Assembly: GCA_000151295.1 (NCBI GenBank) | Contig: GG745363.1 | Location: 360,117 to 424,116 of the forward strand | From: Allomyces macrogynus ATCC 38327 | Taxonomy: Eukaryota; Blastocladiomycota; Blastocladiomycetes; Blastocladiales; Blastocladiaceae | Length of the DNA: 64,000 nt | Reading direction: 5' to 3' | In this document: positions 14,113 to 22,050 of the stretch, in pieces | Position numbering within the stretch: the first letter of the stretch is position 1 | Layout: each line of letters opens with the position of its first letter | Notes under the pieces: generated by a model | The model's database searches: none | What the model was told of the DNA's origin: nothing | Seen by the model: the letters and a program-made list of their open reading frames with translations, nothing else | Translations under genes and position numbers: made by a program

Positions 14113-14126
14113 AGCGTCTTGGCGCA
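14113..14126 (+). repeat. left target-site duplication (tRNA head)
   Basis: AGCGTCTTGGCGCA, identical to the first 14 nt of the initiator tRNA gene at 21954-21967. It flanks the 3' end of the retrotransposon. Confidence 0.85.
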
Positions 14127-14135
14127 AGGACGATG

Positions 14136-14141
14136 TTTATT
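14136..14141 (-). terminator. polyadenylation signal at the LINE 3' end
   Basis: On the minus strand this reads AATAAA, about 10 bases before the 3' end of the element. It is placed as expected for the 3' end of the full-length transcript. Confidence 0.55.
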
Positions 14142-14366
14142 GACTGACCTGCTACAAACCGTGCACGACTAACGACCGTCGCTGGGAGAGCAATACGCAG
14201 AAACAAGAATAGGAGAACCAGGGCGCAGCGTGGGGGTCAGCTCCGATACAAAAATTGTCTGCCCGCACACCCAGCCCACTGCCCTCAGCAACTTGAACGC
14301 GCGGGCAGCCGTCAAAGGGGGCGGCTAGCAGGCTAGCCCCCCTGGAAACGCAACCCGTCAACCAAC

Positions 14367-17300
14367 TCAACCTCCTCCACCCGACCAACCCAACAAATTC
14401 GACGAGTCGGCGCCACGGAGGATGTCCACAATGCGACGGCGGGCCGTGAGCCGCACCTCGCACACAGGGTGCACGTGCCACGCCTCCTTCTCACTGCACT
14501 GCGTGCAGCGCGGCGCAACAGAATAGCGCGGAGCACGACGGATCACAGCGATCTGGCCTGGCTCATGAGCAGTGCACGGTTCACGGTCATGGCGTGGCAG
14601 CACCCATGGGCGCGGCGGCACGTCTTCGACCAGGTCGCGAACGTGTGGCAAGTGCAGTTCCGACTGGATCACAGTCAACACCACGTCCATGAAGCGCACG
14701 AGCACAGCGCGTGGGGTTGGCACCTTGGGCCACAGCAGGGGCGCAACCTGGTCAGCAGTGGCGTGCACGGGCACGGGCACGGCGCACAGCGGGAACAGCT
14801 CCTTCCACTTGGCAAGGTCGGCGCATGTGATCGCGGTGGCTGCAAGACAGCGCAGGTGCAGAGGGCCTGGGTCGTGCGGCAACAGGTACCACGCAAAACG
14901 GTTGGCGAGGTCATGCAGGCCTAGCGGGCGCTCACCCGGCTGCGCGTCGGCAAACAGGTCGCGGACGGCCTTGGCCATGTCAGTGTGGAGCCGGTTGAGG
15001 ACCTGGGCGTGCTCGTTCATGCGACACGGGCACACGAAGTAGTGCAGTTGGTCATCGGCTGCCCCGCACAAACACGCACGGCCAGCCGGGAACTGCTCTC
15101 CGAGCAGGCCATGCAGCCGCTCGTGCGTCATCAGGCTACCGAAAAGCGACTGGAGACGGAACGAGGTGGCCTGGTTCTGCTTGCGTGACGTGACGAGCGC
15201 GAGCAGCCGCACACTGCCATGGAGTGCAAGACCCATCGTGTCCCAGTCGATCAATACAGCAAACGGCAAGCCCCTGAGCTGGACGTCAAGCATGATGGCA
15301 CACCTCTCCATGTCGGCGAGCCGCAGCATGAGACAGCGTGGGTCCGACCACACAGGTACGCCAAGCACTGCCAGTGTCATCACGAGCCCCCACTGCGGAT
15401 GCGTGAAAACCATATCTGTGAGCCAGACAGCTGACCTGGGCGCGCGCACGGCACCCCGCCTGGCGAGCAGGTCAGCAACCTCATTCCCAAAGTCGCCGTC
15501 ATGGCCCTTGACCCATGTCAGCTTGACATCAACGTGCCGCACCGCACGCGCGAGCCGCAGTGCCGACCACAAATCCGTATTCGTCGACCGCATGACACGG
15601 CGCGCCGTGAGAGCAGGCGCCACCTGCAGCTGCATTGCTGCACCTGCAATGGCCGCCTGGGAATCGAGGCGCACGTCGAGCCATGCGCCAAAACTGCAGT
15701 GGTCGACTGCAACGAGGAGAGCAAAAACCTCGGACCGCGTTGACGAGTGCGGGCCAGCAGGCAGGCGTATGGCAACCTCATGCAACACACTGGGAAAAAA
15801 CACGCCAGCACCGGCCACGCCTGTGGTCTGCTCGAGGGACCCGTCCGTGTAGACGACGAGCGGCTGCGCGCCGATGTCGCCGCTGGCGACACGTGACGCA
15901 GTCGACTGGTACTCAGCAGGGTCGGCAGCTGCGACAAACACGCCCAGGCGGGTCATGGCAGTGCTGCAGCTGCACGGCACAGCAATCGGGTGGAACGGGA
16001 GCATGTGCAGGTCGAACTTGCCGCTGCGCCACTTGAGAATCTTGTCGAGGACTATGCGATCCGTCTTGCCGCTGCGCTTGCTGTCACCATGGCCGCGCTT
16101 TCCAAAATGGGACTGGGCGACCATGACCTTGGCGGCGTCATAGCCACAGGCAGTCGTGACGTCGAACGGGAGCACTTGGCCACGGTGGAACTGGTCCAGC
16201 ACGACATCCTCGAAAAAGTAGGCGCCGCACGCCATGGCGGTTGTTTGCCATGCATTGCGCCCAGAGCGGAAGGGGCTGATCAGGTCGGGGAGGACGAGCG
16301 AGAGTGGGATGCGCTGGTCGGCCTGTACCAGCGAGAACTCGCCGTTGGGGAAATCAGTGCTGCGTGGCAAGTCGACCAGGGCTAACCCGCGCGCCGCAAG
16401 CTGCAGTATCAACTGGTCAAACCACGCGCGCATGCCCAGCAGCCGGCTTGAGATGTACGGTGCCGCGAGATCTGGCTGCGACAGCGGCGACATGGGGCAC
16501 ATGGTCTGCGCCTGCAGAAAACCGAGCTCGACACGCACTGGCACGCCATTCGGCCCGTGGTCCTGCAGCATGACAGCAATGTCTGTGAAATGCTGCGCAA
16601 CCACGATGTCGGAGAATGGGACGAGTCCCACAAGCGCACGCACATGGAGCGCGACCAAGGGGAAGATGCACGGCAGCCGGAACTTGGCATGCACAGCCGA
16701 CCGTATCGACGCATCGAGCGACTCGAGCTGTGTCATAGTCGGGACAGCAATGCACGTGTGGTATGCGGCGGCCAGCAGGATCACGGCGTTGAGGAGGTAG
16801 ACGGCGGCCTTGCCCATAACCTGGCGCGGCCGCAGCAGCATGAGCCCATGCTTGATCTTGTCGCGTGCAGCACGGAACCCAGTCGCGGGTGACACAGCGT
16901 CGTTGATGAAGACGCCAAGGTACCGAAAGTGCTTCCCGACCCAAGGGACGGGGGCCCCAGCAGCCATCAGCTGTGTTGCAGCTTCGCCGTCACGCGCATT
17001 GAAGTGGAGGACGGCCCCCTTGGTCAGGTTGGCACGGATCTTGGCGATTTCATTGAACTCGTTGACGCGGTCCATGATGCGCTGCAGCCCCACGCGTGCC
17101 GTCGCATAAAACACGGCGTCGTCCATGAATGCAACGGCCGCGACCGACAGCCGGGCAATTTCCGTACCGCCTTCGTATGCACGCTCGCGACCCAGACGCT
17201 CCTGCATCCCCGCACGCGCGACAAGCATCACGCCCATCCCCACTCCTGGCTCTGACTGCGCCATGTCCTCGACCGTGGCGAGGCACACGTCGTAAAACAC

Positions 17301-19661
17301 GTTCCAAAGAAATGGGCTCTCGACCACGCCTTGCGGGATCCTGCGCCCGACCTGCACCTCGTCTGACAGGCCGTATGCGGTGATGACGCGTGCGGTGCGG
17401 CCCTTGATCATGCCTGCAAAGTAAAACTGCACAAATGCGGGCGGCAGGTGGATCCACTCCATGGCGTGACGCAGCAGCGCGTGGGGGACAGAATCATAGG
17501 CCTTGGACTTGTCCTCAAAATAAGCCCACAACCCCGCCCCTTGCGCGTGCGCCTGTGCTGCAGCCGAGTGCAGGATTGCAATCGGCACCGACGTCTCCGA
17601 CCCAGGTACGCCTGAGAACCGCGCACCACGCATCACGTCGTGCTTGGCAAGGACCTTGTGGATGCGCTCAAGCAACACCTTCATGAGCAGCTTGCTTGCA
17701 GTCTCGAGCAATGTGATCGGGCGCGTGCCCACAGCAAGGCCCACGAAACCGTCCGACAACTTGGGGATCAGGTAAATCAGCCCGGTCCGCCACCCGGCCG
17801 GCATGGCGCGCTGCTCGAGGCACGCCGAAAAGAGTCCGGCAAGCGCACTGAGCGCAGCATCACCCGCCTTCTCGAAAAGTCGAAGCGTGACCAGGGACGG
17901 ACCCGGCGCGCGGTCAAGCGCGCAAACGCACAGCGTGAGCGCAATCTCCTCGGCCGAAATGGGCGCCATGAGCCCGGACCAGATGTCGCCATTGACGTGC
18001 GCCACAGGCGCAAACGCCTGCTGCCAAAATGGATTGGCAATGTGTGCGACGTCCTGTGGTGTGAACCACTCCTGGACCTGGCACGCGATCTCGGACTTGA
18101 CCGTGGATGGGTCACGTGATACCAACTCATCTGCACACACAACACGGTCGACCGTTGCGGGCACCTGGTGCTGCAACAGTGCCGAGTTGATGAACTGGCG
18201 CAAATCCACACCAAACAGCTTGTCCCATTTGTCGATAAGCTTGTCCACCCGGGCGCGCGCCCGCGCCACGTCGGCAACCCACCACGCGACCGACAGGTGC
18301 TTGCGCAGCTGCTTGCCTGCGGCCCGTCGAGACGCGACTGCGCCTGGATCGGGGACCCCATTGACCACCATGACTGGTGTGGCCACTTGCAGGACAAGTC
18401 GGTCGTCTGCGCCCATCGCACGCCCAGCCTTGAGCACACACATTGGCACCCTGCTCAATGGAGACTTGCGCAGCCAGCGGCAGAGGTCTCAGAGCGCGAG
18501 CGACAGTGGGTCGCTGCGACGCGACACATGCCAGCCCGAAATCTTGCCGCCCACACACCGCAGAGGCAGGTGCTCGCGTGCCGCTTCCTCGACTGCCTTG
18601 CGAATTTGCTCCCACATAGCATCCAGCGCACCCTCACGCCGCAGCTCCACCAGCTTGGCACTGGCAAGGCTGGCCTTGACTTTGGCGGCAAACGCAGTCC
18701 ACTGCTCTGGTTGCGTCGACTTGGGGTCAGGCAGCTGGCGTGCTGCCTCAGCCAGAACACGACGCAGTGTACGCACCAATTTGCAGTCAAACAGGTTTGA
18801 CAATGTTGTCCGAAACACGAGTGCCGCGTGGTCGAACGGCTTGGGGACGTCCATCAGGTCCACGGCCACCTCATCACCGCCCTCCCCCTCCCTGTGCAGC
18901 CCACAAGTGACTGTGGTCGACACGGTATAGCAGCGGCAGGAGACGAGAGCAAGCGGCGAGACAAAAATCCGATCAATACGGTTGCGTGAAATGGACCCAT
19001 CGTCGTGGCGCGACAATGGTCCCGTCCCATCAAGTACCCCCTCGGCCTCGGCCAGGTCCACGAGTCTGAGCCGTGACAGTGACTGGAACATGGTCGTGGC
19101 CTCAGTGCGCATGGAGCTTGAGTTGAAGTCCCCGCACACGACGACAGTCCACCCGCGCTCAGACGCATGGCGCACCCGGTCCACGAGCCATTGGCCTGCA
19201 GCCCAGTATGCAGCACCGCCGTTGGCACGGTCGTGCGGTAGGTAGGCGCCAAAGACGGCAAGATGGCCGTCCTCGGCGGTGCGTAAATTCTGTTGGAGGA
19301 CGTAACTCTTGTGAGAATACGTCTCGGCCAAGTACAGATGGAATTGCGCGCGAAAAGAGAGAGTCACGCCATGACCCTCGTCCTTTGAGACTGAACCTGG
19401 TGCAGCAGCAGCGTGCCACACGACCCAGCCCTGTTCCCAGTGCAGATCACGCAACTCAAACTCCACCGCCCAGATCCGGTCAGTCATCAACCTCGTCTCC
19501 ATCAACACCACCATGGACGCATCAGACTCATCGAGCAAGCACCTGAGCGCGTCCATCCTGGCCGTGTGCCCCAATGGATCCCTCAATCCACAGGCATTCT
19601 GGACCAGCAGCATCAGGCCAGGAAGACCTGCTGGTCCTGCAACCACACCCTCCTCACGCAT
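14367..19661 (-). pseudogene. LINE ORF2: endonuclease, reverse transcriptase, RNase H (one in-frame TGA)
   Basis: The frame starts at ATG 19661-19659, which overlaps the ORF1 stop (ATGCGTGA), and runs to 14367, 1764 codons including a TGA at 18491-18489. Residues 20-285 are an exonuclease/endonuclease/phosphatase domain with QNACGL (N22), METRL (E55), GDFN (D178, N180), RIDRI (D230) and FDH (D277, H278). After the TGA comes the reverse transcriptase: FEDKSKAYDSV (motif A region), PQGVVESPF, and FMDD as the catalytic box at about 17129-17118. RNase H follows at about 15860-15450 with YTDGS, TRSEVFALL, LDSQAAI and GNEVADLLA, giving the D-E-D-D set. Two Cys/His clusters (CLCG...HYFVCPC and RCTQC...HVHPVC) lie near the C terminus. 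All catalytic residues are present; the only visible lesion is the TGA between endonuclease and RT. Confidence 0.9.
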
Positions 19662-21864
19662 GAGCGGGAGGGGGCGTGGTCGCAATGGGCGGCCCTGCTG
19701 CTGCTGCATGACCCATTGAGGGAGACAGGTTAGCAGATGCGCCTGGCAGGACGCGGGTGGGAGCTGCAGTGGCGGCAGGCACGGGCGCAGCAGACGTGGC
19801 AGGGTGGCGGGCATGGGGCAGCACGGTGGGGGTGGACAGCAGTGGCACAGCCATGGCGGGGGGCGCAGCTGGGCCAAGGGCGGGCGTGGAGGCCAGGGCA
19901 GCACTCTCCACCACGTGAGCTGGGTGCACAGCAGCTGGGGGCTCACCCTCTGTGTCGGAATCCACCTCCATGGGCTGGTCGACTGGGCCCTCGTCGCCCT
20001 TCTGCCGCTTCTTTGCACAGGTGCATCTCAAGGTCGACTTGGGCACTGCCTGCTGCTGGGTGGGCGGGGTGGGCTGGGTGGGCACAGGTGCAACAGCGCA
20101 TGAGGTGGTACTGGTAGCTGCAGCTGGCAGGGGCGACACGGGATCGAGCAGACTGCAAGCAAAGTCGGCCAAGAGCGATAGGAGCGGGTCAGTGCCCATG
20201 CCATAGACAGAGAGCAGCACCTGGGCCATGTGTAGGTGGCCACGCGCGGCCTCCAGGTCCTTGCGGTTGTAGGCAAGCTTGGTCTCCCGGAACAGTACAG
20301 AGGCTGTGTCGCGCGCGATGCGGGCGGCCTCCTGGCCAGCAGGCGACTCGGGGAACTTGGGGTTGTCGGCAACAGGCAGCAGCAACCCCACCACGGGCAC
20401 TGCAGACGGCACTGGCACCACCCCAGCCTTGCCCTCAGGGGTTGCACTGGGCATAGTAGGCTGCTCGGCAGTGGGCCTGCCAGCTGCAGGTGATAGAACA
20501 TGGGACCAGAGCAAGCAGCCACCAACGACAGGTCCAGGGGCTGCAGGCCAGGCCGCGGGCAGCGCTGTTGCTGGCAGCGACGAGGGCGATACAGGTGGTA
20601 ACCGTGACAAGGGCACCAGCAATGATGACGAGAGCTGAGCCAATGGGCGCACGACGGCAAGTGGAGCCGAGTCGGCACGCCGGGGTGCACCTCGGGCGTG
20701 GTCCTGCCCACCACGGCCACCACGACAAGGGAGCAGTGACCAGTTGAACTGTGGTACGTGCGGCTTGTCACAGGACGTCATGCGGTGGTCCGGCGATCCA
20801 CAAACATAACAGACATGCACACCCACGTCCATGGCAAAGATCTGGCACCCATCAAGCTCGAGCCGCATTGCCTGAACCAAGGCGCGGCTGCGGCTTGTTT
20901 TGCACATTACCTCGGCCATGTGGGACAGGCCGACCTTCTTGTCGCGGTACGTGCGCAGCACTGTGACATGCTTGAAATGGTCCATGGGGAGGGCGCAGTG
21001 GAGGTCAATGTCGGTGTAACCATGGGGGAGGCCATGAAGCCAGAGTCTGCGCGAGCGGGCATCACCAAAAATCTCGTCCATCGGCCGGGAACCAGGGACA
21101 AAATGGACGATATTGTCACCAAGTACAGTGTTGTGCTTCTGCAGCATCACCTTGTGCGCCAGCACACTGCAGACCAGCAGCGCTGTCCACTTGCACTTGG
21201 CCTTGTCCAAGGCGTTGAACTCAGCAACACGCAGCACATTGCACTTGGCCCCGTGCAGCGTGTCGAGCAGCGAACCACGCATCCACTGCGGTGAGAGACC
21301 GAGCACACAGATTGTGCACAGCCCAGACCCATCATCCCCCACAGTCATGTTGCGGACCACCACAGTGCGGTCATTGGCGCCAGCGCCCAGCGCAATCGGC
21401 AGGCCTGCCTGCACCAAGTCACACAGGACAGACTCGTCGAAGACGTCGAATATGACAAACGCCTCCTTGCCAAGGCGCTCGACTCAAAAAGCGTGGGCAG
21501 ACGCACATGCGCATGGGACGATGCGGGCCGCACGGGCAAGGAGGTCCTTGTGCGATTTGTTCGTCGTCTGCGGCATGCGGATGTCGTCAATCTTGAAACC
21601 CGCTGTAACATGGTGGACACGGCAGCCCCAGTGGTCACGCCACAGTTGGTCGTCATCATGGTCGCCGGGCTGGGTCTCGGGTTGGTCGGCGCCGTTGGTG
21701 GGCGCATCAATGTCCATGGCATTTGCAGCAGCCGGGTCAGTCAGTTGTTCATGCGCTGAGGCGGCAGGGGCAATTGGTCCACCTCCACCGTCGTCCCCGT
21801 CGGCCACCACCACCTCGGGCGGCAGCATCACACCCACCACTTCGGCGGGCGCGCTCGCAGACAT
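19654..21864 (-). pseudogene. LINE ORF1: nucleic-acid-binding protein with CCHC knuckle (one in-frame TGA)
   Basis: The frame runs from ATG 21864-21862 (MSASAPAEVV) to TGA 19656-19654, 737 codons, broken by a single TGA at 21486-21484. On the far side the frame continues with VERLGKEAFVIFDVFDES. A CCHC zinc knuckle (C-x2-C-x4-H-x4-C, CYVCGSPDHRMTSC) lies at about 20811-20770, as in ORF1 proteins that coat LINE RNA. The C-terminal third is Pro/Ala/Thr-rich. The stop overlaps the ORF2 start by eight bases, which suggests translation of ORF2 by termination-reinitiation. Confidence 0.85.
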
Positions 21865-21919
21865 TGTTGTTGAACGTCGAGGAATCGATTGCAGCAAGTT
21901 AGGACACTCGGGGGGGGGG

Positions 21920-21953
21920 AGCGTCTTTAGCGTCTTGGCGCAGCGTCTTGGCC
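21920..21953 (+). repeat. extra degenerate copies of the tRNA head at the LINE 5' junction
   Basis: Between the LINE body and the intact tRNA are three abutting partial copies of the tRNA 5' end: AGCGTCTT (21920-21927), AGCGTCTTGGCGC (21929-21941) and AGCGTCTTGGCC (21942-21953). They could come from template jumping during target-primed reverse transcription or from repeated insertions at the same site. Confidence 0.8.
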
Positions 21954-21967
21954 AGCGTCTTGGCGCA
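21954..21967 (+). repeat. right target-site duplication (tRNA head)
   Basis: AGCGTCTTGGCGCA, identical to 14113-14126. It forms the 5' acceptor strand and start of the D arm of the tRNA gene. Confidence 0.85.
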
Positions 21968-22025
21968 GGGGAAGCGCGCAGGGCTCATAACCCTGAGGTC
22001 GCAGGATCGAAACCTGCAGACGCTA
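21954..22025 (+). tRNA. initiator tRNA-Met (CAT)
   Basis: The 72-nt sequence folds as a full cloverleaf. The acceptor AGCGTCT pairs with AGACGCT, with an A1-T72 end pair and discriminator A. The D arm is GCGC/GCGC. The anticodon stem CAGGG/CCCTG holds the loop CTCATAA with anticodon CAT. The T stem is GCAGG/CCTGC with loop ATCGAAA. A at position 54, the ATCGAAA loop and the A1-T72 pair mark the eukaryotic initiator rather than the elongator tRNA. The internal A box (TGGCGCAGGGG) and B box (GGATCGAAACC) are intact, so the gene should still be transcribed although a LINE has replaced its 5' flank. There is no intron and no encoded CCA. Confidence 0.93.
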
Positions 22026-22050
22026 CTGATTTCCTCAATCATAAGAGGAC

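Follow-up and report, generated by a model that had tools for sequence, protein, structure and literature searches.

A LINE inside an initiator tRNA gene of Allomyces macrogynus and its relatives at other tRNA genes

Results

A full-length LINE lies inside a rebuilt initiator tRNA gene

We analyzed a stretch of 64,000 nucleotides from contig GG745363.1 of Allomyces macrogynus ATCC 38327 (the window), in which a full-length long interspersed nuclear element (LINE) of ~7.79 kb lies inside an initiator tRNA-Met (iMet) gene. The element occupies 14127..21919 on the minus strand and the complete tRNA gene 21954..22026 on the plus strand, where ARAGORN calls tRNA-Met(CAT); we take it to be the initiator from its A1:U72 pair and T-loop sequence features. 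Nucleotides 1-14 of the gene, AGCGTCTTGGCGCA (21954-21967), recur identically at 14113..14126 (plus strand) as an orphan head that adjoins the old 5′ flank, and the two are the right and left copies of a target-site duplication. A preliminary description of the locus had proposed both a perfect 14-bp repeat equal to the first 14 nucleotides of the initiator tRNA and a complete tRNA rebuilt at the right-hand copy, and both proposals were borne out. It had also given the element a span of 14127-21953. The left limit stands, but the element ends at 21919, and 21920..21953 (plus strand), between its 5′ end and the gene, is made up of three additional, incomplete tRNA heads (9, 13, and 12 nt). A third exact copy of the 14-mer (21929-21942) lies within this short stretch.

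The coding capacity of the element agrees with the earlier assignment to a minus-strand LINE with an apurinic-type (APE-type) endonuclease. Open reading frame 2 (ORF2; 14367..19711, minus strand, with an inferred start at 19711) contains an APE-type endonuclease domain (PF03372; 18924..19574, minus strand; E 3.9e-8, above the curated cut-off), a reverse transcriptase domain (PF00078; 16911..17729, minus strand; E 1.7e-15), and an RNase H domain (PF00075; 15450..15860, minus strand; E 1.2e-16), and is interrupted in this copy by a TGA at 18489-18491. ORF1 (19654..21864, minus strand, with an inferred start at 21864) has an in-frame TGA at 21484-21486. It gave no match in the Pfam comparison and contains a CX2CX4HX4C motif, CYVCGSPDHRMTSC, which we spotted by eye in the translation. 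The 3′ untranslated region (14127..14366, minus strand) is 240 bp long and its terminus, ...AATAAACATCGTCCT, meets A14 of the target. The element ends ...CATCGTCCT straight against the head, with neither a poly(A) nor an oligo(A) tail. Besides the endonuclease and reverse transcriptase, the copies show further marks of a LINE: a 3′ end that is fixed among them, a variable 5′ truncation, and the target-site duplication. A protein search in which the best 8000 candidates were scored returned at least 15 relatives, of which the nearest named ones are from Blastocladiella emersonii (42% and 38%). A search of solved structures with the endonuclease piece gave no match, and the same search with the reverse transcriptase/RNase H piece returned R2 and LINE-1 ORF2 proteins and RNases H, matches that do not in themselves place the element in a clade.

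Eight initiator tRNA genes are preceded by element sequence

We searched the genome in a single assembly of one haplotype (54 Mb in 75 contigs, the window lying on C40). A protein encoded in the window shares 86-87% identity, across 83% of its length, with proteins of Allomyces arbusculus and A. javanicus, and 43% with one of Blastocladiella emersonii, which points to an Allomyces or a near relative (Blastocladiomycota) as the probable host. The tRNA search returned 24 iMet matches, of which 22 are complete genes, one is a gene that lacks nucleotides 1-19, and one is poor. Eight of the 22 complete genes (the window gene on C40, C75, C51:323, C51:234, C67:631, C67:534, C31:294, and C31:195) have element sequence 0-34 bp ahead of them, whereas the other 14 are free of it for 1.5 kb in both directions. 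At four of the eight, exact 14-bp duplications bracket the insert, which measures 7.8 kb at C40 and at C75, 186 bp at C51:234, and 102 bp at C67:631. The C75 copy measures 7,794 bp, shares 91.9% identity with the window copy along its length, and is flanked by the identical repeat. Genome-wide, the exact iMet 14-mer occurs 28 times: in 21 genes, as five orphan heads that adjoin element 3′ ends, and as two extra heads that adjoin element 5′ ends. By comparison, ~0.4 occurrences are expected by arithmetic in a random 54-Mb sequence with equal base frequencies, and the reversed 14-mer, used as a control, has none in the 54 Mb. A chance repeat is ruled out by the difference between 28 and 0.

We next compared the 40 nt before each head with the flanks of empty iMet genes, using 2,860 random stretches as a control; true pairs of empty iMet flanks score 24-40 in the same test. 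The flank of the orphan head in the window matches that of an empty gene, L012, at 26/40, a score equaled by one of the 2,860 random stretches, and the flank of a decayed head at C51:340930 matches L015 at 27/40, which no random stretch equaled. The flanks at C51:234 and C67:631 match weakly (21/40, with 27 of 2,860 random stretches as good). Because of these matches, we conclude that at two places or more the left head represents the 5′ end with which an iMet gene originally began, now separated from the tRNA by the element, as the preliminary description had supposed for the left copy in the window.

The iMet gene without its first 19 nt (L031, C64:689427-689479) is fused directly, at an AGCG repeat of 4 nt, to an upstream flank that resembles those of iMet genes. 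It is possibly a scar left by cutting without insertion.

Related elements occupy other tRNA genes at the same point

A second subfamily, with 48-52% amino-acid identity over the part compared, occupies tRNA-Gln(TTG) genes at the identical point. The 17 exact tRNA-Gln heads listed are all accounted for, by 12 genes and five orphan heads next to elements, and three of the 12 genes adjoin an element (C12, C14:47446, and C61:232). Arrays of heads and truncated copies run up to a tRNA-Val(CAC) gene in one case and to a tRNA-Pro(TGG) gene in another; at the tRNA-Val gene on C64, four heads stand before the gene, the three farthest with one mismatch each and the nearest with none. The insertion point, after A14 in box A, is common to iMet, Gln, Val, and Pro genes. 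It follows that the initiator tRNA, named as the target in the preliminary description, is indeed used repeatedly but is one of several tRNA types in which the family is found. Copies elsewhere in the genome, which that description had suggested examining, lie at tRNA genes with tRNA-derived duplications, and targeting stands unrefuted.

Genes for tRNA-Ala, -Arg, -Gly, and -Ser are likely to be targets as well. On C53, a short element fragment that has an exact Ala head precedes a tRNA-Ala(TGC) gene; on C46, an element copy with a near Ala head lies ~280 bp ahead of a tRNA-Ala gene; and on C56 just the end of an Ala head falls within the stretch read. Element copies lie near tRNA-Arg(CCG) genes, beside tRNA-Gly(CCC), and in a tRNA-Ser(ACT) head, and an array with tRNA-Gly-like heads has no tRNA gene within the stretch covered. 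This inventory of tRNA genes is incomplete because the Rfam tRNA search scored 63 of 794 candidates.

Two further loci are of separate note. At C61:234440-234494, the 3′-terminal ~20 bp of an element are all that separates two tRNA-Gln heads, making this insertion a minimal, 5′-truncated one. On C5, a 65-kb contig, several tRNA genes repeat at ~6.4-kb spacing (C5:41480-64768), suggesting a tandem tRNA gene cluster.

3′ junctions separate two element groups

From 95 motif hits we picked 48 element 3′ ends by hand, according to the downstream resemblance to the element, and compared their junctions with 22 tRNA heads; the ends are partly non-independent, and the first two letters of the Gly(CCC) head were inferred from the acceptor stem of the tRNA-Gly gene L129. 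A tRNA head was matched at 11 or more of 14 positions by 36 of the 48 ends, at 12 or more by 31, and perfectly by 13, the tRNA type assigned to the weaker (11/14) matches being uncertain. Among 18,989 random positions, 162 reached 11/14 and 36 reached 12/14, in control loci that themselves contain tRNA heads. A tree built from 27 of these 48 ends (of 30 listed, three were under 140 bases and were dropped) resolved two well-supported groups, with five of 24 inner branches at the strong-support mark. We assigned all 48 ends to these groups by hand, 17 to group 1 and 31 to group 2; C66:1269289 and C69:1744476, both detected solely via an iMet-type 3′ end, belong to group 1. The junctions of group 1 have TGGCGCA in 7 of 17 cases and TRGTGTA in none. 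In group 2 it is TGGCGCA that is absent, and 16 of the 31 junctions have TRGTGTA. Among ends with either motif, motif and group were associated (Fisher p 4e-6, with related copies not independent).

Within the tree, two Gln-resident copies nest among Val-resident ones (fork support 82/49, which is weak), and at the 5′ terminus of one of these two, the C12 copy, lie 11 nt of a Val head. These sequence relationships suggest, but do not prove, a switch of target from Val to Gln.

Two other 3′ ends, L080 (C55:936865) and L098 (C63:419499), have in common a long left flank that is not tRNA. Either one locus was duplicated here or a further target has been hit repeatedly.

tRNA heads recur at element 5′ ends

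We also examined the eight known element 5′ ends. In a scripted comparison, four of these (window, C75, C12, and C30) had a head prefix of at least 11 nt; when eight 5′ stretches were shuffled, 2,000 times over, any such prefix appeared in 0.85% of the sets. At C30 a full head is followed by 36 nt of unexplained sequence. The 5′ end at C31:195 has a degenerate likeness to a head, judged by eye, and those at C61, C40:262, and C32 have no head. Where the head is that of the same target, it may have been carried over from the donor, but it may equally well stem from a second copying of the 14-nt overhang or from the filling-in of an abortive cut. A 15-base pattern from the 5′ end occurs at 67 places in the genome, and we examined 20 regions for it, two of which were known 5′ ends; four more of the places fell within loci covered earlier in the analysis. 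The other 18 comprised two new 5′ ends beside a tRNA (C30 and C32), a tRNA-Lys on C26 without a clear element, and 15 regions that showed no tRNA. DNA searches with two of the element 5′ ends returned seven and six places, all of them already among the eight.

Most occupied genes are intact and the element copies carry CpG transitions

Most occupied iMet genes retain an intact tRNA sequence. The gene at C31:195208 (L030) is mutated at several positions, and that at C75 is altered at a single base of its anticodon stem. The tRNA-Gly gene beside an element on C32 (L129) has TT where the acceptor stem calls for GC and, judged from its sequence, appears to have lost two acceptor-stem pairs. Element sequence moreover replaces the natural upstream flank at occupied genes. 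The preliminary description had called such insertions harmless; given the displaced flank, the mutations in L030, and the apparent damage to L129, that claim is too strong.

Aligned over 7,792 bases, the window copy (14127-21920) and the C75 copy (C75:1453744-1461537) differ by 618 transitions and 14 transversions. In all, 590 of the 618 transitions are in a CpG context (the sum of six CpG/TpG/CpA classes), and they occur in both copies. From the sequences, this looks like CpG-specific C-to-T hypermutation, either methylation-driven or resembling repeat-induced point mutation, and the pattern of differences suggests that the insertions are young. Both stops in the window copy are TGA, as are most stops listed for other copies, which is expected from CGA-to-TGA change.

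Discussion

A model for insertion at tRNA genes

Collectively, these data make it very probable that the window element is one copy of a tRNA-gene-specific LINE family that inserts by target-primed reverse transcription with a 14-bp stagger. Several independent copies lie at the identical tRNA site, as expected of a target-specific LINE. The element is antisense to, and upstream of, the rebuilt tRNA gene, and the duplication comprises nucleotides 1-14 at iMet genes and, by eye, ~16-18 bp in the Gln/Val lineage. In our model, which draws on the 3′ junctions for its first step, the APE-type endonuclease would nick the sense strand of the tRNA gene immediately after A14, a conserved base of box A. 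Reverse transcription of the element RNA would then be primed by the 3′ terminus of the head, consistent with 3′ ends that are fixed, 5′ ends that vary, and the lack of a poly(A) tail. The second strand would be cut 14 nt off, at tRNA nucleotide 1 (16-18 nt off in the Gln/Val lineage), and fill-in repair would duplicate nucleotides 1-14, leaving an orphan head with the old flank and a second copy that rebuilds the tRNA at the 5′ side of the element. What is duplicated is precisely the portion of the tRNA that would otherwise be severed, so an element can reside within an essential gene and in most cases leave the coding sequence whole. Arrays would arise when the rebuilt gene is hit again, with copies accumulating and heads left between them, because the rebuilt gene can serve as a target once more. 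Finally, the presence of the two element groups on tRNAs with differing box A suggests that nucleotides 8-14 are recognized; these could be read by the endonuclease, by pairing of the element RNA, or by both.

Several observations weigh against this model. At the 11/14 threshold, 12 of the 48 3′ ends have no head (those on C23 and C35, both on C55, C57:551837, C57:689, the one on C63, two of three on C69, C71:233566, and both on C74). At C57:551837 the miss is a Pro head followed by extra bases and at C71:233566 it is a 10/14 match; the 12 ends may represent decay, longer duplications, or off-target events. The ends at C66 (1269289) and C69:1744476 have both flanks in common and are probably one duplicated insertion. 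Four of the eight occupied iMet genes have no exact left head that we could see: C51:323 runs into an assembly gap, the copy at C67:534 has no 3′ end, and the two loci on C31 consist of decayed arrays. The left flank of the C75 copy is unlike those of empty iMet genes (17/40, with 1,090 of 2,860 random stretches as good), and an assembly of a single haplotype offers no allelic empty site for comparison. Near the tRNA-Arg(CCG) genes on C49 (L069) and C30 (L127), 36-39 bp of unexplained sequence precede the gene, following the element in C49 and an extra head in C30. Lastly, the copy in the tRNA-Ser(ACT) head has, by eye, a repeat of 7 bp rather than 14 bp.

How the target is chosen

For the choice of target, we lean toward the view that the endonuclease alone reads a box A motif and that the lineages differ solely in protein specificity. 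T8, G10, and A14 recur across the heads that are used, the two groups separate by nucleotides 8-14, and an APE domain is present. However, this view leaves unexplained why, among the 48 ends, iMet-type copies sit at iMet heads and once at Arg(CCG). The heads of Asn, Arg(TCT), and Trp genes also end in TGGCGCA, and we found no iMet-type copies there, although not every such gene was examined.

An alternative that we consider possible but rather unlikely is that the target is inherited through RNA pairing. A 3′ read-through transcript would carry the head of the donor gene in antisense, and this would pair with the nicked strand of a gene of the same type. By sequence logic, the read-through of a resident copy is complementary to the primer strand, and the groups retain targets with identical nucleotides 8-14. 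The nesting of Gln-resident among Val-resident copies and the 11-nt Val head on C12 would fit as well, and 3′ read-through of Drosophila R1 into 28S has been inferred (PMC2718515). Yet recognition of box A by protein alone yields most of the same pattern, and the support in the tree is low. A broader proposal, in which a LINE radiation homes to tRNA genes by RNA memory, with the antisense head guiding priming and rare switches founding lineages, is more speculative still. If it were true, switches between tRNAs with similar box A would be recorded at the 5′ end of the element as a remnant of the earlier target, and the Val head on C12 could be such a remnant.

Spread of one occupied tRNA gene by segmental duplication, with no repeated targeting, is highly improbable and is refuted as a general explanation. 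C51:234 and C67:631 do have a left flank in common, as C66 and C69:1744476 have both, but the inserts of the former pair differ (186 versus 102 bp), other loci differ in their left and right flanks and in their truncation points, and different lineages occupy other tRNA types. Ends derived from tRNA are common in short interspersed nuclear elements, but the idea that the 14-bp repeat or the whole tRNA is such a terminus, a doubt already raised in the preliminary description, has virtually nothing left to it and is refuted by a repeat that varies with the target gene, by the 14 of 22 iMet genes that stand free of element sequence within 1.5 kb, and by the old 5′ flank recognizable beside some orphan heads.

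Significance and comparison with known systems

In this one genome, lineages of an APE-type family share one insertion point in four or more tRNA types (initiator, Gln, Val, and Pro). With these lineages, the arrays, and a possible target switch, the acquisition and change of LINE targets become directly testable. Proteins of target-specific LINEs are reportedly in use for gene insertion into ribosomal DNA (rDNA) (PMC11371274). In the open-access literature that we searched, outside which lie subscription papers and Repbase, we found no description of an APE-type LINE inside tRNA genes, nor of such elements in Blastocladiomycota, in keeping with the earlier statement that no described fungal LINE with an apurinic-type endonuclease was known to use the initiator tRNA.

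The family resembles R1, a non-long-terminal-repeat (non-LTR) element of arthropod 28S rDNA. R1 has a 14-bp target-site duplication and forms tandem arrays separated by it (PMC2718515), and its clade has an APE-type endonuclease (PMC4640811). The iMet copies are likewise site-specific in a multicopy RNA gene, with a 14-bp duplication and arrays spaced by heads. Unlike R1, they belong to a family that targets several tRNA types, their duplication rebuilds the 5′ end of the gene, and the host is a fungus. The window element also has an RNase H domain. Insertion into 28S rDNA, which characterizes the R1 clade, is not what we found: the copies lie at tRNA genes, rDNA not having been searched separately. 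The likeness to R1 is one of duplication and arrays.

Other non-LTR elements are known from tRNA genes. NeSL-1_TV (tRNA-Pro), LIN15_SM (tRNA-Arg), and LIN25_SM (tRNA-Glu) are reported as tRNA-gene-specific (PMC4640811). They are treated there among families related to the NeSL clade, which have a restriction-like endonuclease, whereas that of the window element is APE-type (a restriction-like domain was not sought separately). Dada elements, which the preliminary description had listed as non-LTR, are DNA transposons that use several tRNA gene types, many at nucleotides 8-13 within box A (PMC8869645). Their DNA transposase implies a different mechanism and a convergent tRNA target, and a relationship is ruled out by the reverse transcriptase (PF00078) of the window element.

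The dictyostelid elements TRE5, TRE3, NLTR-A, and NLTR-B are also non-LTR elements at tRNA genes. According to PMC5911963 and PMC5006619, TRE5 lies upstream of tRNA genes in opposite orientation, NLTR-A and NLTR-B carry RNase H, as the window element does, and insertions of TRE5, TRE3, and NLTR elements are placed 2-6, 39-64, or 40-54 bp upstream or 40-150 bp downstream of the gene. TRE5-A and TRE3-A, as described there, have an oligo(A) tail, which the window element does not. On this description the dictyostelid elements insert outside the mature tRNA. The iMet copies, by contrast, join at nucleotides 14/15 and at nucleotide 1 of the tRNA itself, with the head duplicated, and the copies near tRNA-Arg on C49 and C30 are the exceptions to insertion within the tRNA.

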